Positions 990-24,708 of a stretch of DNA of 25,035 nucleotides are shown here, piece after piece. The DNA lies in NCBI GenBank assembly GCA_036939355.1, contig JALLAP010000177.1:1-25035 (forward strand), in the 5' to 3' direction. The DNA is from Thalassiosira profunda. Its lineage: Eukaryota > Bacillariophyta > Thalassiosirophyceae > Thalassiosirales > Thalassiosiraceae. A program made the translations under genes and the position numbers. Positions within the stretch are counted from its first letter, which is position 1. Every line of letters begins with the position of its first letter. The notes beneath the pieces were generated by a model that saw only the letters and a program-made list of their open reading frames with translations, was not told where the DNA came from and ran no database searches.

Positions 990-1126
990 GTGCGCACGTC
1001 GGCCGATGGGAACGAGCTGTTCAGTGCATCGAGTGTGAGGAGATGATCCGATGCCAATACTGCCCGGAGTCTTATTGCTGTGACTGCTGCCACGATGAGT
1101 GTCGAAGTTGCACGATCGAAATGTAA
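990..1126 (+). pseudogene. Duplicated Cys-motif fragment, possible alternative terminal exon
   Basis: Directly after the stop of the preceding gene, another frame reads QCIECEEMIRCQYCPESYC and ends in TAA at 1124-1126. This is a clear second copy of the motif at about 813-872 (QCIECEEMIQCKNCSEAYC). The copy continues Cys-rich and then stops early. No ATG precedes it. Both copies begin immediately after a CAG that could serve as a 3' splice site (ends at 815 and 1024), so it could be a relic of tandem duplication or an alternative last exon. Without transcripts I favour a relic. Confidence 0.5.
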
Positions 1127-1174
1127 AGCACTCATCAGGAATCAGGATCAATGAAGAAACGACACTGCACCGGT

Positions 1175-3588
1175 TTACTTTGTCGACACTAGCTTCTTAC
1201 GCCTCTTCATTGACTGGTAGCAGAGAATGAAATCATCCAATTTGTCCATCACACCGCTGTCTAGCCGAGACAATGCCATGTCGTCCGCATTGCATTGAGG
1301 ATCTCCGATGCTGTCTTTCTCTTTGGCAATGCGGTCGGCATCGCCATTCTTCTCTCCGAACCTATCAAGCTCGACCGCGCTGGAGGTGACTACTCCAGTG
1401 GCAAGAGAGGAACCCGTGGGCCGTCGAGGTGGTTGAATCTCCATCGCTTCTTCAGGACTTTGGCCATCCTCTAGACGCCGTTCTGCTCTGCTGAGCACCG
1501 ACTTCATGCTTTGGAGTTGTTGGGGGGTTGGATCCGGAAACCCTTCTTCCTCGTCCTCTTTGTCGTCGTACTTTTTGTCGCGCGAGTGTAAGGGGTTGTG
1601 CGACATCCCGGCGTAGAGATTGAGTGTCGATGACCGGCCCACCAAAGAACCAGAACCTCGACGGTGGGTCTTCATCATCCGCTCGTGATAAAGTTGCAAG
1701 ATTATTGCAACAACCGCGCAGCCGACGAAGAACATGGTTGGAAAAATCACTGCAGTAACGACAGACGTGAGATGCATTTTGGATCTGATAAGTTGGAGCA
1801 AATGTCCTTACAATTCTCGACGCCAATCTGTGCGAACTCATCCTCCTCCGCATCCTGCTCCGACAATAAGACATTACATCGGGGCTCTCTGTTGTACTCG
1901 AGGTTGTACGCCTCTTCCAACGTTTCGACCGTCACGTCAGAGTACTTCTCGCCCTGATAAATCCAATAGCTGAAGCCAGACGCAAGGTCCGATCTGATGG
2001 GAAATCCAACAGGCTACTTGGTGTGCATGATCATAAAAGTGAGCTCCGCCAGAGAATTGCAAACATCGTCTTAACACGAGAGATGTTCACTCACATTTTC
2101 GATGACGAGGCTGTCGGTGTAGACGAGCTTCCGGTCACAGAAGAGAGCCATCAGATTGAGGTCCCCCAAGGAGTCCATTTTGCCCACTGCCATGACCTCG
2201 CACAACCCAGCGTCATAATCATCGAGCAGACCGTACAGTTCCCTTCCCTCTTGATTGAAGACGAAATTCGCGTTGGGGTGTGCCAGCTCGAGGTCTGATT
2301 GCAACGCCGGATGTGCGCATATCTTGTATCCCAAGGCAATTGACTCTTCGATTGTGCCCACGTAACTCGACTTTGATCGCGTCAGAAACGCCGCCAGATT
2401 TGACACATAAGCTGACACGAGGATGAGGATGAAGAAAGCAAAGCCGAACATCAGCAGCCGATGTGGGAGACTCGCCCCTTCCTTTTGTTCAATGCCGGCG
2501 CTGCAGAAAAAAGTTCCGTTTTGCAAGAACTCGTCAATACAGCCGCGCCAGGACTCTCTTCTTCACGCGCCCCGACGCGTGTCTTTGTCCGCGTCGCGTC
2601 AGCTTCGCTCCCTTGCCAGAGAACCACGTGGCCAGCAGAGCCGCCACGGCAATCATTGCTATCAGTAACGCCCAAACTCCATAGGTGAAAGGATCCAGCA
2701 CCTTTTGCGTCTCCGCACTCAATGAGTTGGCCGAGCCTGGCTTTGGGATGACCAGCACCGTTCGATCGTGGTGAATTGGCATTGTGAAGGTCACCTTCTT
2801 CAGTCGTCCCCCAGTGATCCAAATGGGACCATGGCAATGTCCGCAATTCCGTCCACCACATCTTGCACGGCCGCATTCCCCGGGCTCGACGGATGGACCT
2901 TCGCCGACGCCCTCGATCCGGGGACATAGCTTACGGTAAAATCCTCATCAGACATCTTCTGCAGGGCATTGACAAAGTTGATGCACACCTTCCGGGGGCA
3001 CGTTGCTGTCGTAATACTCCTCCCCCGGCACCGCCGGGATGTTCCCGTCGTAATCTCGCGTGTAAACCCAAGGCAAAATGTTGTAGTTGGGCGCGATGGC
3101 CGTCATGGCCACCCCACCTAACGCGTAGTGGGTGCTCTCGAACCAGTCCGCCGGAGAGGACCCACACGTGCTGTACGAGAAGAACTAGAACATGCGACGT
3201 CAGATGACCTCCACAAAATTTGAGCATATGATATGCACACAGAGCAAGTGCTCACCATGTCCACCCCCGATTCGGCCGGGAACATCTGAGATCTGTAAAC
3301 CCGCTCCTCGGTGGCCCTGCACTGCGTACGGTTCACGTAGCACCAGGAGCGATTGCAGTAGTCGGGCAGTGTCGCGTTGTTCGACGCTATGCAATTGGAA
3401 TCGACGCCCAAATCGTGAGGAAGACAGGCCGACGCGCCGTAGTCGTAGTCGACGCACGGGTCAACTCCGGCGATGCCGAGCAACACTCCATCGTTTCCAT
3501 CTGAGGTGGTGCAGGCGCGGTCGGGGAGGGAGGCGAGTGTTTCTGTTGTGTCGATGCACCGACATCCCTCTGCGCCGGCGCTACTCAT
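1175..3588 (-). CDS. Ionotropic glutamate receptor-like channel (4 exons, frame breaks in exon 2)
   Basis: Predicted ligand-gated cation channel of the plasma membrane. Exons on the minus strand: 3588-3256, 3184-2095, 2013-1812 and 1749-1175; introns of 71, 81 and 62 nt have GT-AG ends and keep phase. Exon 1 is a Cys-rich extracellular region ending near DYCNRSWCYVNRTQC. Exon 2 holds the S1 lobe (YNILPWVYTRDYDG, then PIWITGGRLKKVTF), TM1 (FTYGVWALLIAMIAVAALLA), the pore region and TM3 with VSAYVSNLAAFLT, matching the SYTANLAAFLT signature of the iGluR family. Exons 3 and 4 give the rest of S2 (GFPIRSDLASGFSYWI) and TM4 (IFPTMFFVGCAVVAIILQL), then about 160 residues of probable cytoplasmic tail. 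Three apparent frame changes lie in exon 2 near 2990, 2828 and 2560, so this is either a recent pseudogene or a region with sequence errors. No signal peptide is seen at ATG 3588; a 5' exon may be missing. Confidence 0.82.
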
Positions 3589-4035
3589 CGCGCCGGTCCG
3601 AGAGGCTGCGAGCGGGTTCTATGGGCGACGCGACAGTCCCCAACGCCGGCGAGTGGTCAAGCCAGCGCGGAGGCGCATGCATCGATCGTCAACGTGCAAC
3701 GTGCAGTGAATGAAAAGAAAGAAAACGCTGAGAGGCTACATCTCCCAACTTACGCGAACCAGGGCTTCAAGTAGGTAGGGAGTAGGTAGCTCAAAAGATC
3801 AAGCAATCAAGCTGACCTCCTCCGCGCTGGGTGCTGGGCCGCCATCCCTCGAACTCCCTGCCCGCCGCCACCACCCTGAGGGTGGAGGAGGCGCCGCTGC
3901 TCGTGGTAAGTGTGGAGTGGGCGCCGCTGCGCTCCAGCGGCAAGGAAAGGAGTTGCAACAATTTTTATTCCGGAGCCGGAGGTGCAGCTCCACCATCAGA
4001 ACATTGCAACCAACAAATCAACTGAACAACTAACA
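3589..4035. promoter_or_regulatory. Divergent promoter region between channel and VPS15 genes
   Basis: These 447 bp separate two divergently transcribed genes, so both promoters and 5' leaders should lie here. TTGCAA at 4004-4009 lies 26 bp before the VPS15 ATG and a second copy lies near 3953. Donor-like GTAAGT is present on the plus strand at 3906-3911 and on the minus strand at 3753-3748, so leader introns or a missing first exon of the channel gene are possible. Short direct repeats occur near 3770-3790 (GTAGGTAG twice) and 3688-3700 (AACGTGC twice). I see no convincing coding exon. Confidence 0.4.
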
Positions 4036-7000
4036 ATGGGCAACGCCCCGTCGAGCACGGATGCCTCGGGCTCTCCGGAAAAGACGGCGGGTGCATTCAA
4101 TTCCGCGGACAAAGGCGACGAGGCGTCGTCACTATTAGATGCCGGGAAATTCAACCCGCACATCTCCATCCAAATCCTCGGCGGCTCCGGCCCATCCGAC
4201 GACGCGGCCGTTTACAACATTGATACAGCCAACCAGACGGTCGGCCAGGCGCTGGGCGCCGCCCTGGGAGGAGGGGGCAATGCCTCCTCCAGCGATCCAC
4301 TCTTATCCTCCCTCCCGAAAGATCTCAATCCATCCGTGTTGGGCGGGCAGCTGGTCGCGGTGGGGAGATTGTGGCCCGGGAGCGGGCGGATGATGCGCTC
4401 GTACCGGCTGCGGGCGAGGGTTTCCCGGATAGACACCAAAACTGGCGCTGCCGCTGAATCGGACAATTCAGCCGCGGCCTCCCTCCCGTGCACGGTCGAA
4501 CTGGCGTGCAAGTCGTTCCTCGTCCGGTCCGAAGAGGGGGAGGGTCCGTTGCGCGCGGCGCTGGCCGAGGGGGACGCCGAATTGAAACGATTGCGGAGCC
4601 TCCTCTCCGATCCGCAGAAACATCCACATGTGCTGGCATATGCACGGTGGGCCGTGGGTCAATCTTCCGCGCCCAACAACCAAGCGGCCGACGCTCCGGT
4701 GGCGAGGCCGGTGTACTTGCTGAGGCAGCATGCTCATGCATCACTCTCGGATCGTCTTGTATCGAGGCCGTTTCTGACCCTCATCGAGAAGAACTGGATC
4801 ACCTTCCAGCTCCTGAAGGCGATCCAATCCCTCCACGACGCGGGCGTGTGCCACGGCCACCTCACCACGGAAAACGTCCTCCTCACCAGCTGGAATTGGG
4901 TCCTGATCGGCGATGTGGGATGCCAGCATTACAAGCCGGTGGTCTTGCCGGACGACGATCCCTCCCAGTGGCGGCACTGGTTCGAGGGGAGGGGAGGTGA
5001 CGAGGTTAGGACGGAGAGCTTGGGGGGCCACCACAGCGGAAACGGGGAGAGGAAGTGCTGTCTGAGTCCGGAGCGGTTTTCCTCGGGAAGTGGGAGCGAG
5101 GATGCACCGACCAAACTTACCCCGGCCATGGACGTCTTTTCGTTGGGATGCGTGCTCATCGAGCTCTTTCTGAACGGCGAACGGGCGCTGGATTTGGGAG
5201 ATCTCATGGAATACAAACGGCTGGGCGGCGACGGATCCACATTGCCCCAATCCCTCAAGCAAAAATTGGACAAGATCGAATCCTCGAAGATGCGGGCGGC
5301 GTGCCGGCACATGCTGAGCCTCGATCCGTCCGAGCGGCTGCAGCCGCTGGAATACCTGGAGCGCCTCTCGTCTACGAGCTCGAAGAAGAAGAAGGGTAAA
5401 TCGGGGAAGGACGAGGCCAAGGGTGAGCCAACCCTCGCGCCGCTGCCGCCCTGCTTCGCGTCGGCGTTGTACCCTTTCATGCTGCGGTTGCGAACGCAGA
5501 TTTTGTCGCCTGACGCCCGCATCGCCCTGGCGGCGTGCAACTATGGAGGAATCTTGAAGGCCACAGTCGGGGTTGACGATGAGTGGGGCGCGGCCTACTT
5601 TGCTCGAGCGCTGGGACCCTCGCTACGCCAGTTTGAGGATCCGGTGGCAGCAAAAGATGCTCCCAAATCGGAAAAAGCGTCGAAGGTTGGGAAGAGCAAC
5701 GCCAAGAGCGACCTATCCCATTTCTCCTTGGACGAGCTTCTCGCCGAGACGGAGAGCCTCCTGTCGCAACTCGACTCAGGCGTGCTCGCAGCCAACGCGG
5801 AAAGCTCTCCCGATCAAACAGAGGTCGCATTGCCGAAGTCCTTGTCGATGTTTGAAAAGCCCAAAGGCTCCGACGTCAATCGGGCATCGCAGGCCTCCCC
5901 ATCGCAATCGGCAATCATCAAACTACTCCAGGTGGTGTTCTCTTCTGTGGGGCACGTGCAGCGGGCGTCGTCCAAGTTTGTGGCGCTGAAATTGAGTGAG
6001 TTCCAATCTGCATTCGCTATCTGTCATGCATGTTGACCTGCTAACATCATGCGTCTTGTCCTCTTTCTGGCAGTGCATCGAATTGCCCTCTTCACATCCG
6101 ACGAGATTCGACTTCAGAGGATAGTCCCTTTCGTGACGTCGCTGCTTCAGGATCCGGAGTCGATCGTGCGGGCATCGGGAATTTCGGTCCTAGCATCGGT
6201 CTTATCGCTGGTGACGACCTTCCCTCCGTCGGACGCCATGCTCTTTCCGCGATACGTGTTCAAAAAGGTGGCGCACCTCATCACGGACTCTTCCTTGATC
6301 GTCCGAGTGGCGTTTGCGCAAAACATTGCCAGTCTCGCGGAAAGTGCGTTGCGGTTCCTCGATGTTGGACACTCCGTCAGCCTGTATGAGGCGGTGGCGG
6401 GGAGGCAAAGTGGTGGCAACGACAACGCTGGCACATCGGCTGCCATGTTTTCAGAAGAAGCCGCCAATCTACTAGGGAAGCAGAGCAGCTCTTCCGATGA
6501 TGGCGCTCATTTGTCGAACGTCGATGCTTTGGCTCCCTCGTCTGTTACAATCAAGAGCACATATGATTCAGATCTGGCAGTGTTGCACGACGTGGTATTT
6601 CGATGGGTGATCCACATCACTACCGATACTTCTGACCACTCGTCGCAGTCGAAGCAAGCGCTGTTGAGCGGGCTCCCTCGCTTGTGTCACTTCTTTGGAG
6701 AGGAGTACTCCTTCCAAATCCTGCCGATTCTTCTTGCTTTCTTGAACGATCGGCAGAATTGGCAATTGCGGGCATCGCTCTGTCGGCACCTGCCATCGGT
6801 TTGCCTCTCTGTTGGGCGCGCTGCTACCGAACAGTTTGCGATCCCTTGCATCGAAACGGCGCTGAATGACGATGTGGAGCAGGTCATTAGCGAAGCACTG
6901 CGCTGCCTGTCAACTTTGGTGTCACTGTCGCTGTTGACTCGGGCCTCTCTTCTTGGAACCGAGATAGCGGGAGCATTGCCATCACCCAACGAAAGCCCGT

Positions 7001-9205
7001 CGAGATCTCGTCGCAAGAAGCAAGGCGTGATCCGGAGATGCGGCCCGCTTTTGCTGCATCCATCTCAGGTTGTGCGTACAGACGCGGCATCGTTGGTTCT
7101 CGTGAGCTGGAAGGTCCTCGGCGATACGGATGCAGAAGTGTTCGTCAACCAACTGCTGCGGCCTTACCTTCAGTACAAGCCCACCTTCGAGTCCATGCCC
7201 CACCTACTTGCATGCCTCAAAGATCCTCTTGTGGAAGCAACGACTGCCTCTGAATCTTCGCAGGAAATAAAGAGTATCGACGCGGAGATCGAAATCTCTA
7301 CCAAACTTGCCAACAGCCTTTCCGTGCCAAGCCAAAAGTCTGTGGAGTTGGTATCGAAGAACAGCCTCAAGTGGTTTGAGCCGTTGCATCTGGCTGCTGC
7401 AAAAGACCCAGAACTCAGTGCTGCGTTCCACTCTCTTGGGTTCCTGTCTCTTCAGAAAGGTGAGCTGCGTTGTACCTCGGCATCTGCTTTTGGTATCTTT
7501 ATCGACAAAGCCAACTTCTGACGTCAACCCTCGCTTTGTAGTTTACGGCCTCGGCATCGAACACCCGGCCAATATATCGCCTCACATACTGATCAATCGA
7601 GTGGACGAGAAGAAGCTTTCTGGTCTGGTGGGAAACAAGGAGGACATTTCCGCTGAGGTTATAGCTTCCTTTCTTACCCGACCAGAGGTCAAGGTTCTCG
7701 AATCGGCAGGAGGCGGAGAATGGGGATCTGCGTCAGTCAGCGACCAGTTGGTGCCAGAAAGCTCGGCAGTGCACAGCAAAATTGGGGCCTTGGATGTGCC
7801 TCCACTTTCGCCCAGCTTTGGTCTTGCTCGCGTCGCCGGCGATGCTAGCACAAGGCATCACTGGAGTCCAAAGGAGGACAACCTTGTTGGGAGCACGGGA
7901 GCATCTGAGCACATGGGACCAGTCAATCGCCTGGCAGTGTCGGAGGACGAATCGTTCTTCGTGTCCGCTAGCTACGACGGCACGAGTAAAGTTTTTGAGC
8001 TTCGTCAGGCGCACGATTCTGGCGGTGACATTCAGAGCTGCCTCACCTACGATGGCCACAAGATCGAGAATGATCTATCTGCTGTCAGAATCAACGACGT
8101 CTCGATTTTGGAGCACAGCCATTCCACGGCAACTGCTGCCAGCGACGGATCCCTGCATCTTTGGAGGGTCGACATGGTAGCATCGCATCAGACTCAGCAA
8201 CCAAAGAGGCTGAGAGTGTCAGGACACACCACTTTGCGCCGCATCAACCTCAACGAAGGAGAAGTGCAGGCTGTTTCCCATTTCAACTCTCCGTCAGCTT
8301 CGATATTGGCCTACGCCACGCAGAAAGGCAACATTCATTCGCTGGACATCAGATGCGCACGCGAGCCCTTCGCCTTGAGTCTAAAGCCCGAGCTGGGATA
8401 CCTGACGGACATGGAAGTCGGCAATGGCAAGAATTGGATTGTGGCCGGCACCAGCCGAGGATACGTTGGGTTGTGGGACATTCGATACCAGACGATGGTG
8501 AAGCTCTGGCGCCACAATAGGAGTTCACCGATCAAACGGCTCACCCGAGGTTTTGCTGATGTCCAAGACGAGTCCTCACGCCCTCTGGTCTTCATGGGCT
8601 TGGATAGCAACGAAGCTTCGCTGTTCGATGTGTCCACTGGAAGCTGTCTCCAGTGCTATCGAGTGCTGGATTCTCAGCTTTCGTACGTGGATCAGTCGGC
8701 ATTGCCGCCAGACTGCCTTGCGATGCCCTCGCTCGAAAGCGTCGGCATCCCCGGGCGTTCAGGGAACCGGCTAGTGTCGTTGGACGCAGCGATCCAAATG
8801 ACCACCCGGCGGCCAACGACCGACAGCATCAATGCATTGATCGGCGGCATCAACCGCCAAGGCCCATCCTATCTCATGACGGGCGGCTCCGATGGCCAGA
8901 TCCGATACTGGGACATGAACACGGCGTCCAAATCGTACTGCGTCAGCGGCCTCGAGCGCAACCAGCCCCCACCCAGCTTCGAGCAGGTGCAACACGGCCG
9001 CACTTCGCGCTTGATCCTTTGTCGGCAGCCGGCCATGCCCCCGACGGGACTGATGGAAAGCAGCAAGCTCCCGTTGCGCAACCGGCAGGGCGCGGCCAAG
9101 TGCGAAAGTCGACACTTGGACTCCATTCTCGATCTGAAGGCCGTGAAGCATCCGTCGCTTCTGTTGAGCGCCAGCCGGGATCACACCATCAAGCTGTGGG
9201 CATAG
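4036..9205 (+). CDS. VPS15: VPS15 / PIK3R4, regulatory subunit of class III PI3-kinase
   Basis: Predicted membrane-anchored scaffold that binds and activates Vps34 for PI3P synthesis in endosomal sorting and autophagy. Exons 4036-5995, 6074-7459 and 7542-9205 join in phase (introns 78 and 82 nt, GTGAG donors) to 1669 aa, longer than the human protein of about 1360. The start is supported by MGNAPSS, a classic N-myristoylation signal found in Vps15. A kinase-like domain follows, with ACKSF (possible lysine about residue 159) and CHGHLTTENVLLTSWNW, matching the Vps15 catalytic loop HGDxKTENVLxTSWNW. The aspartate is replaced by His275, while GDVG keeps the later Asp. HEAT-like repeats run through exon 2 (RLQRIVPFVTSLLQDPESIV). 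WD40 repeats fill about residues 1237-1669, ending SASRDHTIKLWA. The second join gives LQKVYGL, as in other Vps15 proteins. Insertions rich in Ser/Ala separate the N-terminus and kinase region. Confidence 0.95.
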
Positions 9206-9272
9206 CTATGTGGCTTCCTCTGCTGTGCTATTCTTATCATCACAAAGGCGCAGTAAATGTAACCGCTAGTTG

Positions 9273-10712
9273 TTACGGCAAGATCCAGTTGAAAAACAGC
9301 AGCAGCAGCGCCATGAGCACAATGAACGACGCCATTGGATGGCGGCTCTTGGCCCCCCTCTCCGCCGCGTCGACCAAATTGTCCTGCCCCTTGTCCACGT
9401 TCTCCTTGCTCTTCACCGCCCCGTCGTGAATGGCGAATATGTCCTCCTGTTGTTCCGTAATCAGGTCCGTGAAGCGCGACAGGAGGGTGGTGATGGCGAC
9501 CATCGATTGCTCGACCTTCTGGACCGAGTCCAATTCGGACGTTTGATAGGTGGCGAGGAGCATGGCCGACTCGCGCTGCAGTTGGTCCCTGTGCTGCTCC
9601 TCTTCCTCGTAGGGAGGAGGCGGGACGGTTCGAGGGCGCGGTCGTTGTGTGGGCTGTGCAATACGCTGCGGTGCATCGATTCCCCGCTCTTCCAGCGTCG
9701 GTTTGGGCAGATTCATGAACCGCATCACCGACGAGGGCGGGAGCAAATTGGCCGCAACGTCCCCCGCATCCGCTCCATCCCCCTCTTCTTTCTCCTTGCC
9801 GTACACCCCCAAAAACTCGTTCTTCTCCTGCTCCCTCTCCCTCCGATCCCGCTCGGCGTCGTGCTCCCCCACCTCCCACTGCGCCGGGGGCAGCGCCCTC
9901 CTCGTCGAATCTCCCCACGCCCGCGTCCGGAACCCCCGCATGGGATTCTGGGCAATGTCCAGCGCCCCGTCCCCCGCCAGGCTGTGGACGCTTTTGGGCG
10001 CCGCCTTTTCTCGCTGGGATTGCAGGTGAGTCATGGGCTCCATGATCTCGGATTTGAGGCGCTGCATGAGGCAGGACGCGATGGCGGCGCGGTGGCCGAC
10101 GGGGCCGGACGCCCATTGGTGGGGATCCGCGGCGGCTTCGCCCTCGGGCGTCGCTGCCTGTCTCAGGGAGTCTATTTGCCTGCACTATTGGGTGAGCATA
10201 AGGATGAATGAGACACGATGTGCACTGCAAAACACTCACTTGGCCATCCCCGCACTGAAGCTGGCGGCCGCCGTCTCCAAAATCGATCGATCGGCATTCG
10301 TCATGGTCCCCTCTCCTCCGGCCTCCTTCTCTCTCCCAAAGCAAATGTCCAGCGCGTCGGTGCTGCTGACGTACGAAGCTGCCTTTTGTCGAATCATTTG
10401 AGACACCTCGTCTATTGAGGCCGACATGGCCATTGCGGTGGACATCCAGGAGTCTGCAATTGCAGCTTCTTCTCGTTGATTATTGCCATTGCGGGTCAGG
10501 TCGATGGCGAGGTAGCCGGGGGCCGCCCAGCACCCTCTCAGCGCCTCTCCCTCTGCACCTCCACGTGCACCAAAAATTTGGCCCTCGGATTCACGGTCGT
10601 CTTCGACGTTCAGCCGCTGCCGCTTGGGATCCCGCCCCATAAAGACCTCGTGGCAGCACGATCGCCACTCGCGGGTGCGGTCGTGGGCGGCGTGGGGGTG
10701 GCGGGGCTCCAT
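9273..10712 (-). CDS. STX18: Syntaxin-18/Ufe1-like Qa-SNARE
   Basis: Predicted ER Qa-SNARE for Golgi-to-ER retrograde fusion (family knowledge). Exon 1 (10712-10240) and exon 2 (10179-9273) join across a 60-nt GTGAG-CAG intron, phase 2, giving 459 aa; the join reads GMAKQIDSLRQA. The start Met is followed by HDRTREWRSC, resembling the conserved N-terminal peptide DRTxEF of plant SYP81 and syntaxin-18, which supports this start. The C-terminal SNARE helix (about residues 385-438) reads SRFTDLITEQQEDIFAIHDG with a probable zero-layer Gln near residue 402. A tail anchor of about 20 residues (FIVLMALLLLFFNWILP) ends the protein. A Pro/Glu/Arg-rich linker makes it longer than the human protein of about 335 aa. 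Its stop lies 67 bp from the stop of VPS15 on the other strand. Confidence 0.88.
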
Positions 10713-11135
10713 GTTTGGGCGGCACCAGAGAGCAGGGGCGGGCGAGGGGCGAGGGGAGCACTGCTGGGGACCGGCGGATACATACGTACTTACGTAAAAG
10801 TAGTTAACCGTATCTTTGGCCCCTGCGCGAGCGCACCGCCCACCACACCACACCCGCCGCTTCGACGCCGCCCCTCTCCTGTGGAGCCAATCAACATCGG
10901 CGGGCGGCAGGAGGCTTGACGCTCTTGTGAGCATAACGAGCCGGATTGTCAGGTTGGCGGGCCCAGAAGTGAAGGGATTGGGTCAGTCGTCGGTGACTGA
11001 GGCGCAGTATCGGAGCCATCAAACTGGCAGGAGCCACGCAACTCTGAAATACAGGGGCGAATCTCGCTATCTAGGACGAGGGCCGATAATTGCGCCCGCT
11101 TTGCTTGAGATATCGAGCATCACCACGGAGACATC
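10713..11135. promoter_or_regulatory. Divergent promoter region between syntaxin and SET genes
   Basis: This 423-bp gap separates two divergent start codons. Most of it (10872-11099) is the left arm of a long inverted repeat described separately. The remainder (10713-10871) holds GC-rich sequence and a short AT-rich patch near 10783-10807 with repeated TACGTA/TTACGTAA. The minus-strand frame remains open upstream of 10712, but I place the syntaxin start at 10712 because the conserved N-terminal peptide follows it. Confidence 0.45.
10872..11099 (+). repeat. Left arm of about 230-bp inverted repeat pair
   Basis: This arm matches the reverse complement of 13139-13369 in ordered blocks: 10872-10881, 10897-10915 (19/19 bases), 10919-10947 (two differences, one a single-base gap), about 11012-11028, the perfect 39-bp core 11029-11067, and AATTGCGCCCGC at 11088-11099 (one difference). 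Gaps of different length separate the blocks. The core lies 69 bp before the SET start codon. The arm fills most of the syntaxin/SET divergent promoter. Confidence 0.9.
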
Positions 11136-12282
11136 ATGGATCTTCTCTCCAGCAGAGACGATGCAAATACTGATGAAAGTGACAGTGAAAGTTACGGCGT
11201 CGGGAATTCAGAGGAACCGGATGCAGTAACTCGGTCAGGACAAAAGGAGAAATTGCTGCGCAATCTGAAATCTCACAACGTGGAGCTGCGCCCCAGTGAC
11301 ATCCATGGCGTCGGGGTGTTTGCTCTTGCATCGATCTCGAAGGACACCAAAATGTTCCAATTCAACGGGGAGCCAAACCCTCGCAACATCAGCTTGACAC
11401 AGCGCGACATCAACAGTCTCCCGGAGCATGTGCAGCACAAATTGAAGAGTTTCATTCTCCCTGACAGCGATGGGCTGTATCCCGTCCCTGAGCATGGCCT
11501 ATCTTGTGCGCTGGGAGTGAGTTATTACCTCAATAACTCTGAGGATTCTGGCAAGACGCCGAATGTTGAGTTCGGTGGTAAGTGGGATGCATCTGGCTAC
11601 ACAGAAATCATTGCAACGAGGGGCATCAACAGGGATGAAGAGCTTGTTCTTCCGCCGTACAAGATGAACAGGAGCGTGCGCGATGCAAAGCGGCAAAAGA
11701 CGGCCCCAGACGAAGTGCAGAAGAGATCGAAGATCCAGTTGGCAAAGGAACGCCTCGTTGTTGCTAAGGAGAAGGCCGATTTGGCCAAGAAAATGGCTGA
11801 ACAGAATGAAGCAATGTATGTGGCAGCAAGGAAGGGCTTTGAAGTGGCCTCGGAAAACAGAGAGGCGGCCGAAGCCGAGCTTAAGAAAGCCAATATGGAC
11901 GTAAGGAGGGAAGGGTTCGAATTGATGCTGACGAACGGAGTTCTCCCGAAGGATCACGCTTATCGCCTATTGAAATCTATACTCATCATGTGGATGGAGA
12001 TAGAAAGCAAGATGTATGGCAACAGAGACATCCTATGTGAGTCTTTTCTTGCGAAGCGTCTGTCGCTTGTGTGAATAACGACACTCATCCGGCCTCTCTT
12101 TAGGTTGGAGCACCGGAAACAATGTACTGAGGAACCTTGTCAGCACAGTTCCTACATCGATCGCCAAGCTTGAGGGTTGCGGTGTTCCTGCTGATGTTGT
12201 TGAGACATATGGATGTCGCATCGTGAAGGGAATCAAAGCCTTCATCAAGGAGTGGAATCTGCAGCAATACATTGACGACTGA
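11136..12282 (+). CDS. SET-domain protein with coiled-coil C-terminus
   Basis: Predicted lysine methyltransferase of a small SET type; the substrate is unknown. Exon 1 (11136-12036) and exon 2 (12104-12282) join over a 67-nt GTGAG-TAG intron, phase 1 (DILCWSTGNN), giving 359 aa. SET landmarks in order: SDIHGVGVFAL (residues 54-64), YYLNNSEDSGKTPNVEF (130-146, position of the NHS-type motif, here NNS), and ATRGINRDEELVLPPY (160-175, position of GEELxxxY). The N-terminus is acidic. Residues about 195-265 are charged and Ala/Glu/Lys-rich, likely a coiled coil. No pre-SET or post-SET cysteines are seen. The change from NHS to NNS leaves activity uncertain. Its stop lies 36 bp from that of the convergent membrane-protein gene, and both genes sit between inverted-repeat arms. 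Confidence 0.82.
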
Positions 12283-12318
12283 AGCCCTTATTTCCACAAT
12301 AATGAAGTTGCATTCTCC

Positions 12319-13020
12319 TCAACCCCCGATGCCCTTGATATTTGCATTCAGCTCCACGAGCTCCCGTCGAATGTCCCTCAATATCTCATTCGTCTCCGCA
12401 TTGCCACCCCTTTCTCCCCGGTCCATTGCCATGGCCGGAGGGGCAACCGCAGGCGCCGTCGCCACGGTCTGCCCCTTGGCCCCCGCCCGTTTCATCGCCC
12501 ACACGAGCTGCTTGAATTTGTCTGCCTCCTTCAACCCCGCCAGCGTCAATTCGTGCCGCGGTCCGCCCTCCGTATTCCCCCCGCTCGACGCCGTGTCGAC
12601 GTTCACCACGCTCAGCACGTTCTCGACGCAGCAGCACGTCGCCCCCGCCGCCTCCGTCACATCGCAGTCCGTAATCTTGTCAAATGGCACCGTCTTGCTC
12701 ACTCTCCCGGCATCCTGGCATCCCATCCCGCAGCCCGTCTTGCGCCGCTCTTTGACGTACTTGATCCCGTCCCGCGTCACGGCCACGTGTTGCGAATGGA
12801 CGTCCCAGTCGATCTGCTGCTTGAAAAAGCAGGGCCAGCAAAAGAAGCTGCTGCAAACCAGGACGGGCGGGAAGAGAAGGGCGATGCACGCCACATCTTT
12901 GCGGAAGGCGGCGATGGTTTCATAATCAAAGTCGAAGACGGCCACGAGGCCCTCCTCGCGCTCGAAGAATTGGTCGGTCCAGCGGAAGGACCGGGCGAGC
13001 TTGGTCGCTTCGCCGTCCAT
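12319..13020 (-). CDS. Uncharacterised membrane protein, PH-like/protist-conserved type
   Basis: I read one exon of 233 aa. After a soluble N-terminus (MDGEATKLARSFRWTDQFF), one strong hydrophobic stretch (ACIALLFPPVLVCSSFFCWPCFF, about residues 44-66) could form a membrane hairpin. It is followed by a beta-rich segment with HVAVTRDGIKYV, KTVPFDKITDCDV and VNVDTASSGG, then LKEADKFKQLVWAMKR and a short C-terminal helix. The layout of a membrane anchor plus a small PH-like sheet, and the KITDCD and VDTASSGG text, resemble an unnamed family I believe occurs in several protist groups; that is memory, not a search. The ATG at 13020 is preferred because TTGCAA overlaps it. The frame stays open to 13101 with an alternative ATG at 13098, which would add 26 residues. 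Confidence 0.75.
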   Translation of the reverse strand: MDGEATKLARSFRWTDQFFEREEGLVAVFDFDYETIAAFRKDVACIALLFPPVLVCSSFFCWPCFFKQQIDWDVHSQHVAVTRDGIKYVKERRKTGCGMGCQDAGRVSKTVPFDKITDCDVTEAAGATCCCVENVLSVVNVDTASSGGNTEGGPRHELTLAGLKEADKFKQLVWAMKRAGAKGQTVATAPAVAPPAMAMDRGERGGNAETNEILRDIRRELVELNANIKGIGG

Positions 13021-13138
13021 TGCAAAATATAGTATCGTTTGGAAGTGGAAGAGTGATTGGAGCCTGGGCCGTGCAGCGGTAGTTGTGGAGCTGCCCATCA
13101 ATTTGGATGCTGCTCGTTCGTCCTACCCTGTCCCGTAC

Positions 13139-13369
13139 GCGGGCGTAATTCCGGGCGAGATTCGCCCCTGTATTTCAGAGTTGCGTGGCTCCTTATTGCC
13201 ACGTATTGATGGCTCAGCTCCGCCACTCCTCTGAACGCCGCGCCCACTGGCAATATGAGTACCAATCTGTTTGCAAATCCGGCTCGGTATGCTCACAAAG
13301 CGTGTCTGTCGTCACTGTTCCGCAAGGCCTCCTGCCGCCCGCCGAGGTCGATGGCTTTGCAGGAGAGGG
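13139..13369 (-). repeat. Right arm of about 230-bp inverted repeat pair
   Basis: This is the reverse-complement partner of 10872-11099. Clear blocks are the 39-bp core at 13155-13193 (identical), GATGGCTC at about 13208-13215, 13276-13303, 13327-13345 (19/19) and 13360-13369. It lies in the divergent region between the membrane-protein gene (start 13020) and the LRR-like gene (start 13673). Relative to the enclosed gene the core has the same orientation as the left copy, 135 bp before the preferred start codon. The right arm holds extra sequence between blocks (for example about 13304-13320), so the arms are diverged, not freshly copied. Confidence 0.9.
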
Positions 13370-13672
13370 CGGCCGGGGAGGCTCCTTCAGGCTCCTTCTT
13401 CTCCGGGTGCGGGGGCGGGCGGCTCTTTTTTGGCGGGAACATCCATCACACCCCGCGCGGATGGAGGCCGCACAAAAATCCAAGCAAATCCTGACAAACA
13501 GCAGCCGCCCCCACAAACCCGCGCCTATCGCGCGCAGGCTCGGAGCCGGCGGTCAAGGCGCCCTCATTTGTGACGAAGAGCCGGAAGCTGGAAGATCGAG
13601 CGGGCGTTTATCGTTGTCTTTAATACGCCTACGTCTCCGCCCGCACACACAACACATCTACCATCTCATTCC
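13370..13672. promoter_or_regulatory. 5' region of the LRR-like gene
   Basis: About 300 bp of GC-rich sequence outside the right inverted-repeat arm. Frames running through it on both strands are Arg/Pro/Ser-rich and show no domain, so I treat them as non-coding. A CATCTCATTCC pyrimidine patch directly precedes the ATG at 13673 and could be a transcription-start element. I see no TTGCAA close to this start. Confidence 0.3.
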
Positions 13673-15151
13673 ATGACGTCCCACTGCCAGTCCATCAAAA
13701 CGGTGTGGGCGACGATCGAGCCGTTCTCGGACGTTTTGTCGACGGTGGCGGTGGCGCAGACGTGTCGGGGATTGCACGATGAAATCATTGACGCTGATAC
13801 GCAGAGGATTAAGGTCTCTCACCTCGCCGTTTCGCCTCCTATCTTCGGCGATGATTCCGAAGATAATAAGCCCTGGCGCCGGATTCCGAACTACATCCCG
13901 CATCTTCTAAACAGCATCCACTGGCCATCATTGCGGGCGATTCGTTTAGAGTGAGTTCGTGGCTACTTTTTTGCTGTTGCGGCGCCATTCCTCATCTCCG
14001 TGACCTACCACTCCTGCAGCTTTCGTATTGAAATCTTGCCACGGGACGCAGACGGCAACACTATCGCCGATGCCACCGCTTCGTGCTTTCCTATATTCGT
14101 TTCACAACTCGCGTACGCGAAGAATCTGGAAACGTTGACATTGAAGTTGGGTGGTGCATTGCATGGCGATGACGATGGCAATCCGGAGAGCATGCAGCCC
14201 CTCTTGGAGCTCTTTGGGCGGAATCTTTCCCGATGCACCAAGTTGAAAGATGTTGACATCACAGTATCTGAGCATTATTGTCCTCGCGCAATGAGGGGAC
14301 TGCTTCGGGGACTGACTCCTGTGGTGGTAAAGCAGAGGGAAGTGCTCAGCCGAGTACAGTTGAATGTGACATCTCCCGGCAAGCTGGGTGTGGGAGGTGT
14401 CCTACTGGAGACGAGAGGAACTCTTCATTATGCCGCAAAAGAATTCTTCCGAAATGCAATATCCTGCCCCGATCTGCGGGTGTTGGAAATATACGTCCCA
14501 AGATGCTTAACCCTGACCAGCGCCTTGTTTTGTTCTGCGGGGTCATTGGTGTCAAGTTGCTCCAAGAGGCAGAAAACGCAGGGAGTGTCGAGTAGATTGT
14601 ATCGTTTATGTCTACACACTTATGGCATGCACGGCCGGGGAGATCCAATAGCGGAAGAGAGAATGGTAGACGCGAGAATGCTCCTAGAGCTCTTCTCATG
14701 TTGCACCGAGCTCGAAGACTTGACACTGGGCCTTCATCGAGAAGTCTGGCGAGCTCATTCTGATGCAGTTGCAAATATACTCCGTGGCAACAAGCAAAAG
14801 TTGTCGGCTGTTTCGTTTGGCTTCGGCGACCACAGAGATGGCGACGGGAAAATGCTGGAGCTGCTAAGGGGTTGCGCGATTGGAAACGAATGCAAGATGG
14901 GTGATATCTTGATAGACGATTTGAACTTCGTTGATGGCCAGAGACTGTTCAATCTGCTGCAGGATATGAGGGGTGTTGGATTTACCGTGAATGATTTCAT
15001 TGCAGTGCACAATTCGCTTGACAGTGACGATGAAGTGGGTCATAACACCGAGGAAGAGGACATTCCAGAGAGAGTCCAAATTGGACGGATATGGATACAT
15101 CATGATGAGAATTACGATCGTCGCGAGAGGGACCTTGGGCCGTGGTACTGA
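13673..15151 (+). CDS. F-box/LRR-like protein
   Basis: Exon 1 (13673-13950) and exon 2 (14020-15151) join over a 69-nt GTGAG-CAG intron, phase 2 (AIRLDFRIEI), giving 469 aa. The N-terminus (VWATIEPFSDVLSTVAVAQTCRG) resembles a degenerate F-box-like helix pair. The body contains repeated leucine-rich segments such as LETLTLKLGG, CTKLKDVDI, CPDLRVLEIYV and CTELEDLTLGL, spaced irregularly as in ribonuclease-inhibitor-like solenoids. The C-terminus is acidic then His/Arg/Asp-rich. A protein-interaction role, possibly substrate choice for ubiquitin ligases, is the usual guess for this architecture but is not shown here. The stop lies 17 bp from the stop of the convergent gene. Confidence 0.8.
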
Positions 15152-15168
15152 AATTTCCATTAGAGTTG

Positions 15169-15956
15169 TTAAAAGAGATAAAGCGTGTCCACCAGCAGCG
15201 CCAACGTGCTCGCGTGCGTTGGTGCTCCCGTCGCGACGGGCGAAGGCGCGCTCTGCGGCACGCCATCGCGATGCACGGGCCAGTTGGACGACGGCGGCTC
15301 CTCTTGTACCTCGCCCTTATTCAATTGGGATGTCACCCTCTCGCCCTCGGTTTCCCATTTGGAAATGTCACAACTGCAATTCAGAAGCACCCTCATCTTC
15401 TCCTGCCGTTCTTTTCGCCTCTGCGTCTCCATTTCCCTCTCCCTCTCACATTCGACCGCCTCTTCTTCCCACTGCTTTGCTCGTGCTGCTCGTTTCTCCT
15501 GGGCGTACTCGCGCTTGAACGACTTTATCTCTTCTCTTGTGTAGAATAGCGTGTTTGTATCGAATGTCTCACTTGACGGAGGGGCGTGCACGGAGATGGC
15601 CAGGGAGTTGGGAGAGAAGTGCACCGACCGCCGGCGATTGGGCCGGGCGGCCACGCCGTCGCGGGCGCCTCCGCTCAGGATGCCTGGAGGTTTGTCTCGG
15701 GCCGTGGAGTAGAGCCCGCCGCCCCACATGGGCCCGTAGAGGTTGTTGGGAACCAAGACGTCCATCGAGTCCGCATCCGGACGAGGCGACATTTGCAAAT
15801 ACCGCGGTGCTCTAGGCTCCTCTTCAACCGAGGTGAATGATGAGGGCGTGCGCACCTGTCGATAACCGCCATCCAGCCCTCAGCGCTGGCGACAGTTGTT
15901 TCATTCACTAGGCCCATTGTGCGAGTTGTGTGATGCGACAATGAGGGAGAGGTCAT
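15169..15956 (-). CDS. Coiled-coil protein with diatom-type RRSVHFSP...LFYTREEIKSFK motif
   Basis: The main exon (15855-15169) encodes a basic RRRSVHFSPNSLAISVHAPP stretch, then LFYTREEIKSFKREY and a long charged helix (about 60 residues, likely coiled coil), ending in LVDTLYLF. The RxVxFxP ... (L/W)(F/W)YTxxEIxxFK pattern recurs, to my knowledge, in diatom proteins of unknown function. The exon has no ATG at its start; GTG at 15855 directly follows a CAG acceptor. A 53-nt intron (15856-15908, donor GTGAAT, weak) would link it in phase 0 to a short exon from ATG 15956, giving 244 aa. An internal start (Met of QMSPRPDAD) is the alternative. Confidence 0.62.
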
Positions 15957-16064
15957 CGTATCACTACGACTTTTTGAGACGTTGCAGCAGGACAAAACGA
16001 TTCACGAGATCTTTGATCAAAAGCGTTCTGCACGCCTCCGCACCACCGCGTTGGCCATAAATCC

Positions 16065-16098
16065 TCTTCGTCGCATCCCATCCAACTAAATTGCAACC
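16065..16098 (+). promoter_or_regulatory. Upstream module of small acidic gene A
   Basis: The 12-mer TCTTCGTCGCAT (16065-16076) and TTGCAACC directly before the ATG (16091-16098) are both repeated upstream of paralogue B (24143-24154 and 24203-24210). The shared order suggests a common core promoter or leader. Confidence 0.5.
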
Positions 16099-16569
16099 AT
16101 GGCCTCGTCCACCTGCTTCGGCGCGACCGCCCCGCCCGCCCTCGACGTCGCGCGGCGGGTCTCTGACACTGACGCCTCGTCCGCGTCGGCCGCCGACCTC
16201 GACGCCTTCGACTTCCTCCTCGACGACGGCTGCGACGCCGCGATGGACGTCGATCCCTTCGGCGCCGACGGCAACCCCGACGGCGGGGCGGCCCTCGACG
16301 AATCGTGGGACGAACGGTTCGCGGCCGAGGCGCCGTGCTTTCGGATCACGGTCAATTCCCCCCGCCGCCAGACGAGCGACGCCTCCCTCCTGTCCTTGGA
16401 CGCCGCGGCTTCAATGAACCCAACGCTCGCGCCGGCCAGCTACACCGAGGCATTGCGCAGCCTCGCCGCGTCGATGCGGCGGACGGAGGCGTCGCGCCGT
16501 CAGGTCATGCTCCAGAGAGAATGGCTGAAGCGGCAGCGGAATCCACAGATGCAATCTCCATCGCGGTAG
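16099..16569 (+). CDS. Small acidic protein with SMRRTEASR helix (paralogue A)
   Basis: Single-exon gene of 156 aa. The N-terminal half is Asp/Ala-rich and probably disordered (LDAFDFLLDDGCDAAMD). The C-terminal helix (residues 122-140) reads LAASMRRTEASRRQVMLQR, matching paralogue B at 17 of 19 positions. I associate this (S)M(K/R)R(S/T)ExSR helix with small diatom proteins of unknown function; an acidic region plus a basic amphipathic helix would suit a nuclear or regulatory partner protein, but that is inference. The start is well supported: ATGG context and TTGCAACC immediately before it. No membrane segment or signal peptide is seen. Confidence 0.78.
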   Translation: MASSTCFGATAPPALDVARRVSDTDASSASAADLDAFDFLLDDGCDAAMDVDPFGADGNPDGGAALDESWDERFAAEAPCFRITVNSPRRQTSDASLLSLDAAASMNPTLAPASYTEALRSLAASMRRTEASRRQVMLQREWLKRQRNPQMQSPSR

Positions 16570-16821
16570 GGCCAGCCGAACGGTGTGCGCAGCCGCAGGA
16601 ACCGTGCGATTGCCGGGCAAACATAGATGCGATATTGATGGGCCAACGAGAGACCATGTGCTTGTACACATTGCATTAAAAAGGAAAGATTCTTCCAAAC
16701 AATAACTCATCCTCTATCTTACAAAGACAAACAGTCAACATCGTACAGGTATCCTATCTATTCCTCGAACTATCCTCTCTAAGATGCTTCGTACTACTCG
16801 CGTGGCGAAACGGGCTCGGCA

Positions 16822-17655
16822 TTAAAACGTGGGAAAGGACGTCAAGGCGGGCGAGGGAGCCTGTGTTGCATCGAATGCATCGACAGCGAAAAGTTGAGCA
16901 AGACGAAATCACAGGCAGAGTAAGTAATGTACACAATATGTGAGCACTCACCCCCGTCTCGGCGCAGTAGCAGCAGTTTTCGTTCGCCGCGCCCATGTCG
17001 CCCACGTACATGTCTCCGTAGGTGGGACATCCGGGCGTGTCCATCATCTCGAACCACGTGCAGTCGTCGCCGTGCGAGTCCCTCCAGTTCGGGGTGTTGC
17101 CCTCGCAGGGCGACGTCGGCTTGGCCGTGGGGACCACGGGCTCGGTAGGGAAGGGAGTGTGCGGAGGGTATGTGGGAGATGGCGTGGATGGCGCGCGAGT
17201 TATCGTGGGAGGATACGTGGGATAAGGCGACGGCTGCGGCGTTACCACCGGTGACTGCACATACATATGAAGCGAAACATAAGCGCGATGATTGAGATAA
17301 GCAAAAGTGCGCAAGATATGAGCAAAGTCTTCGAAACCGAACGTACCCCCGTTCCGGCGCAGTAGCAGCAGTTGTCGTCCGCCACGCCCCTGGCTCCCCT
17401 GTATAAGTTGCCATGCCGAGGGCATCCGGGCAAGTCCATCATCTCGTACCACTCGCATCCATCGCCGTCCACGTCCTCCCAGTCGGGTGTGTTGCCTTCG
17501 CACGGTGAGGTAGGCTTGGCCGTGGGAACCGCAGGCGCTGTCGGGTAGTAGGTCAATCCATGGGACAGCATCCTCTCATCTGTCTCCTCGGCTAGCGTGA
17601 CGGTGCTTGAACCGAGAAGTGCGGCGGTGAGTACCTTGATCGAAGAGAGCTTCAT
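16822..17655 (-). CDS. Secreted protein with two exon-encoded Cys modules ending CCYC
   Basis: Predicted secreted or wall-associated protein of 216 aa. Exons 17655-17347, 17254-16952 and 16860-16822 join over introns of 92 and 91 nt, all phase 0. A signal peptide (MKLSSIKVLTAALLGSSTVTLA) starts it. Exons 1 and 2 each carry one module: PTAKPTSPCEGNTPxW, GDxCxWxEMMD, PGCP and NCCYCAxTG, six cysteines each, with conserved acidic residues. Exon 2 opens with a Pro/Thr/Ser-rich spacer (PSPYPTYPPTITRAPSTPSP), likely extended and O-glycosylated. The last exon is only 12 codons (APSPALTSFPTF). Both modules end exactly at an intron of the same phase, a sign of exon duplication. Such modules recur in diatom secreted proteins to my knowledge; a ligand is not known. 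Confidence 0.82.
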
Positions 17656-22006: not shown

Positions 22007-23611
22007 CTACAACCTGAGGTAATCGTCGAGTTCGGGCGGGGAGCAGCGGAACTTGCGGTAGCTGGAGGTCTTGCTGCCGTTCAGGCACACGTAAATGTTG
22101 CTCAGCAAGTGGCAAACACGGAGCTGCTGCTGGGCGTACGGGAGCCGCTTGCCGAGGCGGTAATTCGCGGGGTTCGAGCAAATCTTGAAGATGTTTTCGA
22201 CGTCGGCGTAGCTCCATTCGATGGCTTGGCGGCACGGCTTGATTTTTCTGTTGCAGAGCCGTTGGGCCGGAGTGAGCTGGGCCCCGGGACCGTACGCCCG
22301 GAAGTAGGAACGGACGCCTTGGAAGATTTGCAATACACAGAAATGGAATGTTTTGAGCGAAATATCGCTACAAAATAATGCAATAAGCAATGATATGAAC
22401 TCACACTGCAATCCCTGCGCTCCGTAAACGCCGTCGCCAAAGGCAGAGTAGATATGCGGTCTACCTTGCTGGAGTTGCAACAGAAACTGATCGAGTCCGC
22501 TCATTTGCATAATACCTCGCACATCGTGGAGCCGAGCGGAGCATGGGCCGTAGACGAAGCTCAAACCGTTTGGCAGCATCACAGTCTCCACCTTGATGCC
22601 GTGGCACTTTTTGTACCCGGTGTAGACGGATCTCTGGGCATCATAGTACTCTTCTCGGCGAGGAGCACCGATGTAATCGCCGTCCGGTCCAGAGAAAGGA
22701 CGGTTGATGCGATCGATGGAGCAATCAATGAAGCCAAAGATACTGAACGGAAGGAACTGAAGGCCCGTGTGTACTTCTGCGGTGAAATCGGTGGCGTGAT
22801 GAACCGTCGACTTCTTGATGTGGTTTTGGATTGCATCGAAGTATCGGGGAAAATCATTGACATATCGCACTAGACCTTGGTGGCCCAAGATATCTTGGTA
22901 CCGGGCATTGACGTAGCGGAGTATCCATGGCCAACCGAAGCTCCAGCGAGATGCATGCCCGCCGAAGATCAGATCACACATCTCCTTGTTGGTGAACCCG
23001 GTCTTGCACTTCGTCATCATGAACAGAAATATTTCCTCCGGATGAAACCGATGAAACGCAGCATGTCCGTTCGACACGCGGACGAAGCCGCTGTTCTGGG
23101 CGGCTAGCTGCGCGAGGCCGAAATGTCCATAGATCCGACGGAGCTGATCCTTCTTGAAGCTCGTAAAATCGTAGCATTCTTGATCGGTCCAGCTGTTGAA
23201 GCGGATTTCCTGCCGCGGCAAGCGCGTCGCGTGATGGTTCCACTCCTCTTGCAAGGGAATATCGAAGTAGCGGTGATCGAGGAGGAACTCTCGTACGAAG
23301 CGGGTCTGGTTGACGGCGTATTTGAGGTGGACGAGGCGCAATAGAACGCCAATTGCAATTGCTGCGTTGGGGGCGGTGGCGGCGATCACATGATGTGTGC
23401 TCACAACAATCGACAGCAGCAGGAGCGGAGAGAGCGAGAGCAGGGCGGAGCGCGCGGCAGTTCCGTGATCGAGCATGCTGCTTTGCAAAAGGTGGAGGTA
23501 TCCGACCTCGGCGTGGCTGAGGTGCATCGAGCGGCGGTAGCTGCTGTGGTTGCGCTTCGGGCCGCGACGAAGGCAGCCCGTGCGCTGGCGGCGGCGCGGC
23601 GCCTTCCCCAT
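22007..23611 (-). CDS. PIF/Harbinger-like DDE transposase
   Basis: Predicted DDE nuclease that would cut and join DNA of a class II transposon. Exons 23611-22405 and 22317-22007 join over an 87-nt GTGAG-AAG intron, phase 1 (GLQCVRSYF), giving 505 aa; the intron keeps frame if retained. The N-terminal part has a hydrophobic stretch, then a helix-turn-helix-like region (FTNKEMCDLIFGGHASRWSF). The catalytic core has IFGFIDCSID (Asp296), PCSARLHDVRG (Asp363, matching the G-S-x-HD block of DDE_Tnp_4/HARBI1 proteins), then FGDGVYGAQG, and after the intron EWSYADVENIFKI with the probable catalytic Glu. No stop or frameshift is seen, so the copy may be intact. It is longer than typical members (about 350-450 aa). 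Met28 is an alternative start. Confidence 0.85.
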   Translation of the reverse strand: MGKAPRRRQRTGCLRRGPKRNHSSYRRSMHLSHAEVGYLHLLQSSMLDHGTAARSALLSLSPLLLLSIVVSTHHVIAATAPNAAIAIGVLLRLVHLKYAVNQTRFVREFLLDHRYFDIPLQEEWNHHATRLPRQEIRFNSWTDQECYDFTSFKKDQLRRIYGHFGLAQLAAQNSGFVRVSNGHAAFHRFHPEEIFLFMMTKCKTGFTNKEMCDLIFGGHASRWSFGWPWILRYVNARYQDILGHQGLVRYVNDFPRYFDAIQNHIKKSTVHHATDFTAEVHTGLQFLPFSIFGFIDCSIDRINRPFSGPDGDYIGAPRREEYYDAQRSVYTGYKKCHGIKVETVMLPNGLSFVYGPCSARLHDVRGIMQMSGLDQFLLQLQQGRPHIYSAFGDGVYGAQGLQCEFISLLIALFCSDISLKTFHFCVLQIFQGVRSYFRAYGPGAQLTPAQRLCNRKIKPCRQAIEWSYADVENIFKICSNPANYRLGKRLPYAQQQLRVCHLLSNIYVCLNGSKTSSYRKFRCSPPELDDYLRL

Positions 23612-24210: not shown

Positions 24211-24708
24211 ATGGCCGCCGCCACCATCAACCTCGCCGCCGATTACCTCGACGCCGCGCCCCTCCGCCTTTCCGACCTCGACTTCGCCGCCGCCGTCAGC
24301 GAGGACGAGTTCTTCACCGATGATGAGCTCTTCGGCGCCGCCGATGACGATGAGTTTCGATTCGACGAGATAGAGGGCTGCGCCGTCGACTTCGATCCAC
24401 TGCACGACGACGACATGTCCTGCTCCAGCGACGGCATGGGCCAGAGCCACGCGTCGTCCCATCAAGCCGCCACAATCGCCGCGCAGCTCGACAAGCTCGC
24501 CGCCTCCATGAAGCGCACCGAGGCCTCCCGCGCCCAGGTCATGCTCCAACGCAACATGCTGTCTGAAGAACAAAGAAATCAACTCTCGGTGGCGAGGCGG
24601 CGGATGCAGCGCCAACACGAGGAGACGCAGCGTCAAAAAGAGGCAGAACGGCGGGGGAAGGACGATGAGGTGCAGTCCTCCGTTTTGCGCGCAGCGGCGT
24701 GGGGTTGA
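24211..24708 (+). CDS. Small acidic protein with SMKRTEASR helix (paralogue B)
   Basis: Single exon, 165 aa. The N-terminal 80 residues are strongly acidic (FAAAVSEDEFFTDDELFG, DDDEFRFDEIEG). Residues 96-114 read LAASMKRTEASRAQVMLQR, nearly identical to paralogue A. Unlike A it continues into a long basic helix (about 120-150, RRRMQRQHEETQRQKEAERR), likely coiled coil. An acidic domain plus basic helix would fit a transcriptional co-factor, but no function is shown. The start at 24211 has TTGCAACC immediately before it; an upstream in-frame ATG at 24157 would add 18 residues without resemblance to A, so it is not preferred. Confidence 0.8.
   Translation: MAAATINLAADYLDAAPLRLSDLDFAAAVSEDEFFTDDELFGAADDDEFRFDEIEGCAVDFDPLHDDDMSCSSDGMGQSHASSHQAATIAAQLDKLAASMKRTEASRAQVMLQRNMLSEEQRNQLSVARRRMQRQHEETQRQKEAERRGKDDEVQSSVLRAAAWG

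Follow-up and report, generated by a model that had tools for sequence, protein, structure and literature searches.

Why do two convergent genes, one predicted to encode a SET-domain protein and the other (M) a protein judged by eye to be a membrane protein, lie between two long inverted copies of the same sequence, and are these arms the ends of a mobile element, a duplicated promoter, or the trace of a rearrangement? The question arises in a stretch of Thalassiosira profunda DNA of 25,035 nucleotides, hereafter the window, which is the whole of contig C176 in the assembly that we searched (21.8 Mb, 1,366 contigs, possibly incomplete). The features on which the argument depends are the following.

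1113-11099, no strand: left flank, collinear with contig C261, with a VPS15-like kinase, a WD40 protein, an unnamed gene at 9273-10067, and gene L
10236-10712, minus strand: gene L, the left neighbour, an ORF of 158 aa with the left arm in its upstream spacer
10777-10817, no strand: 41-bp block on the L side, identical between window and C261, outside the arms and not in the duplicated segment
10866-11099, plus strand: left arm, putative L-side promoter copy, now also upstream of the SET gene, continuous with C261
11029-11067, plus strand: 39-bp core, left copy
11136-12282, plus strand: SET-domain gene with one probable intron close to the 3' end (the unspliced frame ends at 12074)
12319-13020, minus strand: gene M, inverted relative to C261, putative membrane protein by eye
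13139-13373, minus strand: right arm, putative promoter copy that would have moved with gene M, outer end approximate
13155-13193, minus strand: 39-bp core, right copy
13673-15151, plus strand: gene with one intron (469-aa model), relatives on C583 and C617
15166-17256, no strand: right flank, where synteny with C261 resumes with a minus-strand gene at 15169-15792 and continues beyond
22007-23611, minus strand: DDE_Tnp_4 transposase-like gene (Pfam E = 2.5e-10), with no sign that it made the repeat

The inverted repeat is real and far beyond chance. When one spacer was aligned with the other in reverse complement, the ordered match reached a local score of 140, whereas 500 shuffles that preserved dinucleotides gave no score above 33, and a self-blastn of the window recovered the repeat at E = 1.4e-14 and 5.7e-7. 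Its place is as the earlier note had it, with the main blocks in order and in reverse complement: a perfect match of 39 bp (11029-11067 with 13155-13193), 92% identity over 26 nt (10890-10915 with 13327-13352) and 96% over 23 nt (10925-10947 with 13276-13298). The inner arm ends, 11099 and 13139, agree with those given before, while the outer ends are approximate, homology being traceable to about 10866 and 13373. Both arms also occupy promoter spacers, as had been proposed, the left one between L (ATG at 10712) and the SET gene (ATG at 11136) and the right one between M (ATG at 13020) and the gene at 13673. A structured RNA or tRNA in the arms was ruled out, given that they had no Rfam match at gathering score and the whole window contained no tRNA. 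Near the start of the window, a separate direct repeat of 71 bp, 83% identical, occupies 808-878 and 1017-1087.

When the core region was used as a DNA query, the one further match in the assembly was on contig C261, which is collinear with the window at 85-90% identity overall. Window positions 1113-11099 align with it in the same direction (90.0% over 10,215 columns), positions 12329-13220 in the opposite direction (88.6%), and positions 15166-17256 in the original direction again (85.2%); on C261, the first two of these pieces overlap, in the arm. Gene order on C261 is L (4095-4574, minus strand, of piece L004; 90.6% amino acid identity to window L), a single arm, M on the plus strand, and then directly the counterpart of the gene at 15169-15792. 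The arm there takes up the middle of the 612 bp that separate the divergent genes L and M. Neither a SET gene nor a counterpart of the gene at 13673-15151, nor any trace of either, was found on C261. Seen against C261, the window carries M and its promoter in reverse, with a promoter copy at each breakpoint: the reversed block that lies between these copies comprises M and its flank (the SET gene having no counterpart by which to orient it), and the segment present at both ends of the inversion in the window is the single arm of C261. In the right flank, the similar ORFs at 16099-16569 and 24211-24708 (DNA match 16462-16514 with 24496-24548) are apparently paralogues, the first of which has a C261 counterpart, and a direct repeat of 76% identity (16950-17153 with 17345-17548), probably a tandem duplication, lies inside ORFs with repeated PTAKPTSPCEGNTP stretches.

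This comparison bears directly on the suggestion of the earlier note that the arms are terminal inverted repeats of a gene-carrying DNA transposon of the Mutator or pack-MULE type. Long arms do enclose genes, and the window holds the DDE_Tnp_4 gene; however, that gene lies 8.6 kb away, and its Pfam family is one that we take not to be a Mutator family. The empty-site comparison that had been suggested gave a different picture, since C261 is not an empty site and carries one arm together with M in the other orientation. Both arms as DNA queries, and 32 bp of the core allowing up to 3 mismatches, matched nothing in the 21.8 Mb beyond the two window arms and C261, so that the core occurs there at 3 places; copies that are very diverged, or that lie outside these 21.8 Mb, would have escaped this search. 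Target-site duplications of Mutator and pack-MULE elements measure about 8-11 bp. In agreement with the earlier note, which had seen none, no direct repeat of at least 6 bp was shared by the stretches compared at the outer arm ends (starts 10825-10884 against 13345-13419). Transposon termini were rejected on these three grounds, the one-armed C261 locus with M, the lack of further copies and the lack of a target-site duplication, and we regard this origin as scarcely credible.

The inverted repeat seems, on balance, likely to be the scar of a small inversion with staggered breaks that copied a shared promoter. The starting state would have been that of C261, with one promoter region between L, reading leftward, and M, reading rightward. 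Staggered breaks in this region, once filled in, may have placed the few hundred bases that separated the nicks at both ends of the inverted block. The second break would have parted the SET gene from the gene at 13673, both of them standing beyond M by that time. Because the promoter region was copied, neither L nor M would have lost its promoter, and the SET gene, with 36 bp between the arm and its ATG, would have come under the L-side copy. The boundaries of the copies carry this reading: the left copy continues without a gap into the L side, as the right copy does into the M side, and each ends where the private flank of the other begins, as such breaks predict. On this reading, the window arrangement would be derived and the C261 arrangement the older one. 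The alternative of the earlier note to a transposon, an inverted promoter duplication giving the two enclosed genes common control, is supported in its first part and can be explained by the inversion, but common control of the enclosed genes is not borne out, given that the C261 arm stands between L and M and that the SET gene is absent there.

The staggered-break inversion has to account for the two genes without C261 counterparts, which must already have stood, or been inserted, beyond M when the inversion happened, although C261 bears no trace of them. In the window, the SET gene allows five possible splicing models, and its SET domain scored 19.6 bits (E = 0.0013) against a Pfam cut-off of 22.4. 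Its one relative in the assembly searched, on C700, is 59% identical over 166 residues and belongs to an open frame of 737 aa (piece L035, 526-2739) with a SET domain of 22.7 bits and a CXXC zinc finger; near this frame, L035 3046-3373 is an inverted match, at 91%, to the beginning of C700. Relatives of the protein encoded at 13673 number two on C583 (36% and 33%) and one on C617 (29%), while its gene had one short match at the DNA level, on C583. The two C583 relatives (pieces L037 and L038) are about 1.8 kb apart. In a protein collection, neither the SET protein nor the 13673 protein had a relative at E ≤ 0.001 among 1,565 and 1,774 candidates, respectively, in a search with single-exon queries and proteins of 0.55-1.75 times the query length, which would miss the 737-aa SET-CXXC type.

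The joint arrival of these genes raises another possibility, replication-based template switching, in which a single event copied the promoter and M in reverse along with the SET and 13673 genes, and the original M was deleted. Two genes absent from C261 do arrive with the inversion, all within about 4 kb, and the joints are tight, with 36 bp from the SET stop to the M stop and 17 bp from the stop of the 13673 gene to the next gene. Yet no remnant of a second M lies by the left arm, where homology to the M flank ends at 11099, and the two genes are only distantly related to other sequences of the assembly, so that no copied source is visible. We therefore hold template switching to be distinctly unlikely.

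Gene M itself is the counterpart of the M on C261 and not an older duplicate, given that its four-fold degenerate sites diverge much like those of the other genes shared by the two versions. Differences were counted at 20 of 106 such sites for M and at 133 of 810 for six other gene pairs (single pairs from 10/87 to 46/208, with 36/235 for the VPS15 pair), or 153 of 916 in total between window and C261. M was found at 2 places only in the assembly searched, one per version. Neither M nor L had a Pfam match, and M is called a membrane protein here from a hydrophobic stretch judged by eye. A protein search with M gave 287 matches, and among the best 120 of these, which were examined, the first was from T. 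profunda (94% identical), other named matches being proteins of the diatoms Skeletonema, Attheya and Seminavis and of dinoflagellates at about 50%. A viral origin was considered for the SET gene and for M and was rejected, as the 1 and 2 stretches that matched a pattern encoded no relative.

Divergence among the three arm copies is less easily reconciled with the staggered-break inversion. Outside the core, 156 columns could be aligned three ways, with the same base in all copies at 103 and a different base in each at 2; the left and right arms differ at 46 of the 156, more than the left arm and C261 do (20/156) and more than the four-fold sites (153/916), which counts against that model and would suit a duplication older than the split of the two versions. 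On the other hand, in four ungapped blocks of 93 sites, hand-picked by eye as securely aligned and thus chosen for being alike, differences numbered 6 between the left arm and C261, 10 between the left and right arms, and 12 between the right arm and C261. The date of the duplication consequently depends on the columns used, all aligned columns pointing to an old duplication and the hand-picked blocks to no excess (10/93). Judged by the aligned bases, the right arm is the fast-changing copy, which suits decay of its L-side half after duplication or, again, a duplication older than the version split.

The same columns also speak for the opposite polarity, in which the inverted-repeat arrangement is the older one, the arms recombined and flipped the SET-M block, and the SET gene, the second arm and the 13673 gene were then lost to give C261. 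Over most of the repeat, the left arm is nearer to C261 than to the right arm, private bases occurring at 33 columns in the right arm, 11 in the left arm and 7 in C261, and C261 resembles the left arm on the L side of the arm and the right arm beyond it toward M, as a crossover product would. The same pattern would nevertheless result if the right arm had lost an unneeded L-side half after duplication. Furthermore, about 15 bp on the M side of the core are common to C261 and the left arm and absent from the right arm, which a crossover within the core would not explain. Finally, the SET and 13673 proteins, which lack relatives within the searched length range, look like recent additions rather than old genes common to both versions. 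On this evidence, we think it unlikely that C261 derives from the window arrangement.

Whether the 39-bp core was conserved selectively, as the earlier note argued, can be judged with C261 as a third copy. The core is identical over its 39 bp in the left arm, the right arm and C261, while 66% of the fully aligned columns outside it are identical across the three; 0.66 to the power 39 is 9e-8, which gives an order of magnitude and is no test, since the sites depend on one another and the core had been chosen for being identical. The core proved to be no common repeat of this assembly (32 bp of it, with up to 3 mismatches, at the two window arms and C261), and, as described before, it has the same orientation relative to SET and M, lying upstream of each ATG at a distance of 68 bp for SET and 134 bp for M. 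On C261, the distance to the M ATG is 155 bp, and the distance to the L ATG is 316 bp in the window and 418 bp on C261. Selective conservation is not confined to the core, given that the 41-bp block at 10777-10817 is likewise identical between the window and C261. The core region includes a palindrome, GGCGA-ATC-TCGC(C), complete in the right arm and C261 and missing its last pair in the left arm. A scan with bacterial promoter and terminator models, which are meaningless for a eukaryote, gave one match each, no more than shuffled sequences did, and was discarded; its terminator-like match is the palindrome in the right core.

The core is probably regulatory, in so far as sequence comparison can tell, and under the staggered-break inversion it would be an element mattering to both L and M, one that may have been preserved as the remainder of the right copy decayed. 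Arm-to-arm gene conversion could hold the two window cores alike, but it leaves the identity with C261 unexplained. Such exchange also belongs to the idea that recombination between the arms acts as a standing switch, flipping the SET-M block and changing which gene, that of a putative chromatin modifier (SET) or that of the membrane protein, faces the L-side promoter; gene conversion or selection would then keep the core identical, and C261 would descend from a flipped state. We consider a standing switch quite improbable. Switch or not, the duplicated promoter would, following the inversion, have divided its work between the two genes that it served before.

An assembly artefact, that is, a chimeric join of two haplotypes or strains, also has to be weighed, given that diverged second copies are found in other scored regions, a setting that favours chimeras. 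When three contig starts (C50, C200 and C400) were scored against the assembly, a collinear second copy was present for all three: C50 matched C264 at 78-88% and C1236 at 98% over 555 bp, C200 matched C473 at 79-90%, and C400 matched C1159 (73-94%) and C110 (67-89%), besides shorter stretches of C276 and C173. Three copies at C400 do not fit simple diploidy unless the region is duplicated or repetitive. No pairs were found among 19 contig starts, about 1% of the assembly and a sample too small to decide. Nevertheless, the right arm departs from both other copies (10 differences from the left arm and 12 from C261 in the 93 sites), and thus is no assembly copy of either; gene order is conserved on both sides; and the M proteins differ, with the C261 protein 100% identical and the window protein 94% identical to the same T. 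profunda protein, ACHAXT_012043, encoded on a 1.3-Mb contig. An artefact is in our view highly improbable.

The two versions could be highly diverged alleles, allodiploid subgenomes, or two co-assembled strains. One report describes a T. profunda assembly of 58 Mb with a BUSCO duplication of 26% that was still estimated to be diploid, and names incomplete purging, mixed samples and heterozygosity as possible causes of high BUSCO duplication (PMC12159174); a genome size of 41 Mb is given in another (PMC11309476). Since no sequence of the 58-Mb assembly exceeds 137,826 bases, ACHAXT_012043, with its 1.3-Mb contig, must stem from a different assembly. If the versions are alleles of one diploid, they would offer a comparison of one promoter against two within a cell, as well as a natural comparison for the SET gene, which seems to have gained an existing promoter. 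More generally, the locus shows how a compact genome could survive a break inside a shared promoter, the break itself supplying the spare copy, and the paired arrangements with a 39-bp block kept in three copies provide a testable candidate for a diatom regulatory element.

Literature searches on inversion breakpoints or structural variants between diatom haplotypes found nothing, those on staggered inversions with a bidirectional promoter returned titles on other subjects, and those on duplication of a diatom bidirectional promoter by inversion gave, judged by the listing, a general review only. Among known systems, the window resembles Mutator and pack-MULE elements in its long inverted arms around host genes, and differs from them in showing no multi-copy family in the assembly searched, no target-site duplication and a related locus that is not empty. 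It is also related to divergent gene pairs with a shared promoter, such as C261 presents with one 612-bp spacer between two divergent genes, except that the window spacer is split into two partial copies with different partners. The closest mechanistic parallel is found in Drosophila, where inverted duplications at inversion breakpoints, for example those of O4 and O8 in D. subobscura, are ascribed to staggered breaks, which alone among cut-and-paste, repeat recombination and staggered breaks make segmental duplications at breakpoints (PMC5080602). As in the Drosophila inversions described there, the window has inverted end copies of a segment that the other arrangement carries once; unlike in those inversions, what is duplicated is the spacer between two divergent genes, the block measures about 2 kb, and the two arrangements do not hold the same set of genes. 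The proposed mechanism is one known from insects, and the apparent twist here, as read from the DNA, would be that the promoter was spared and that the SET gene received a new one.
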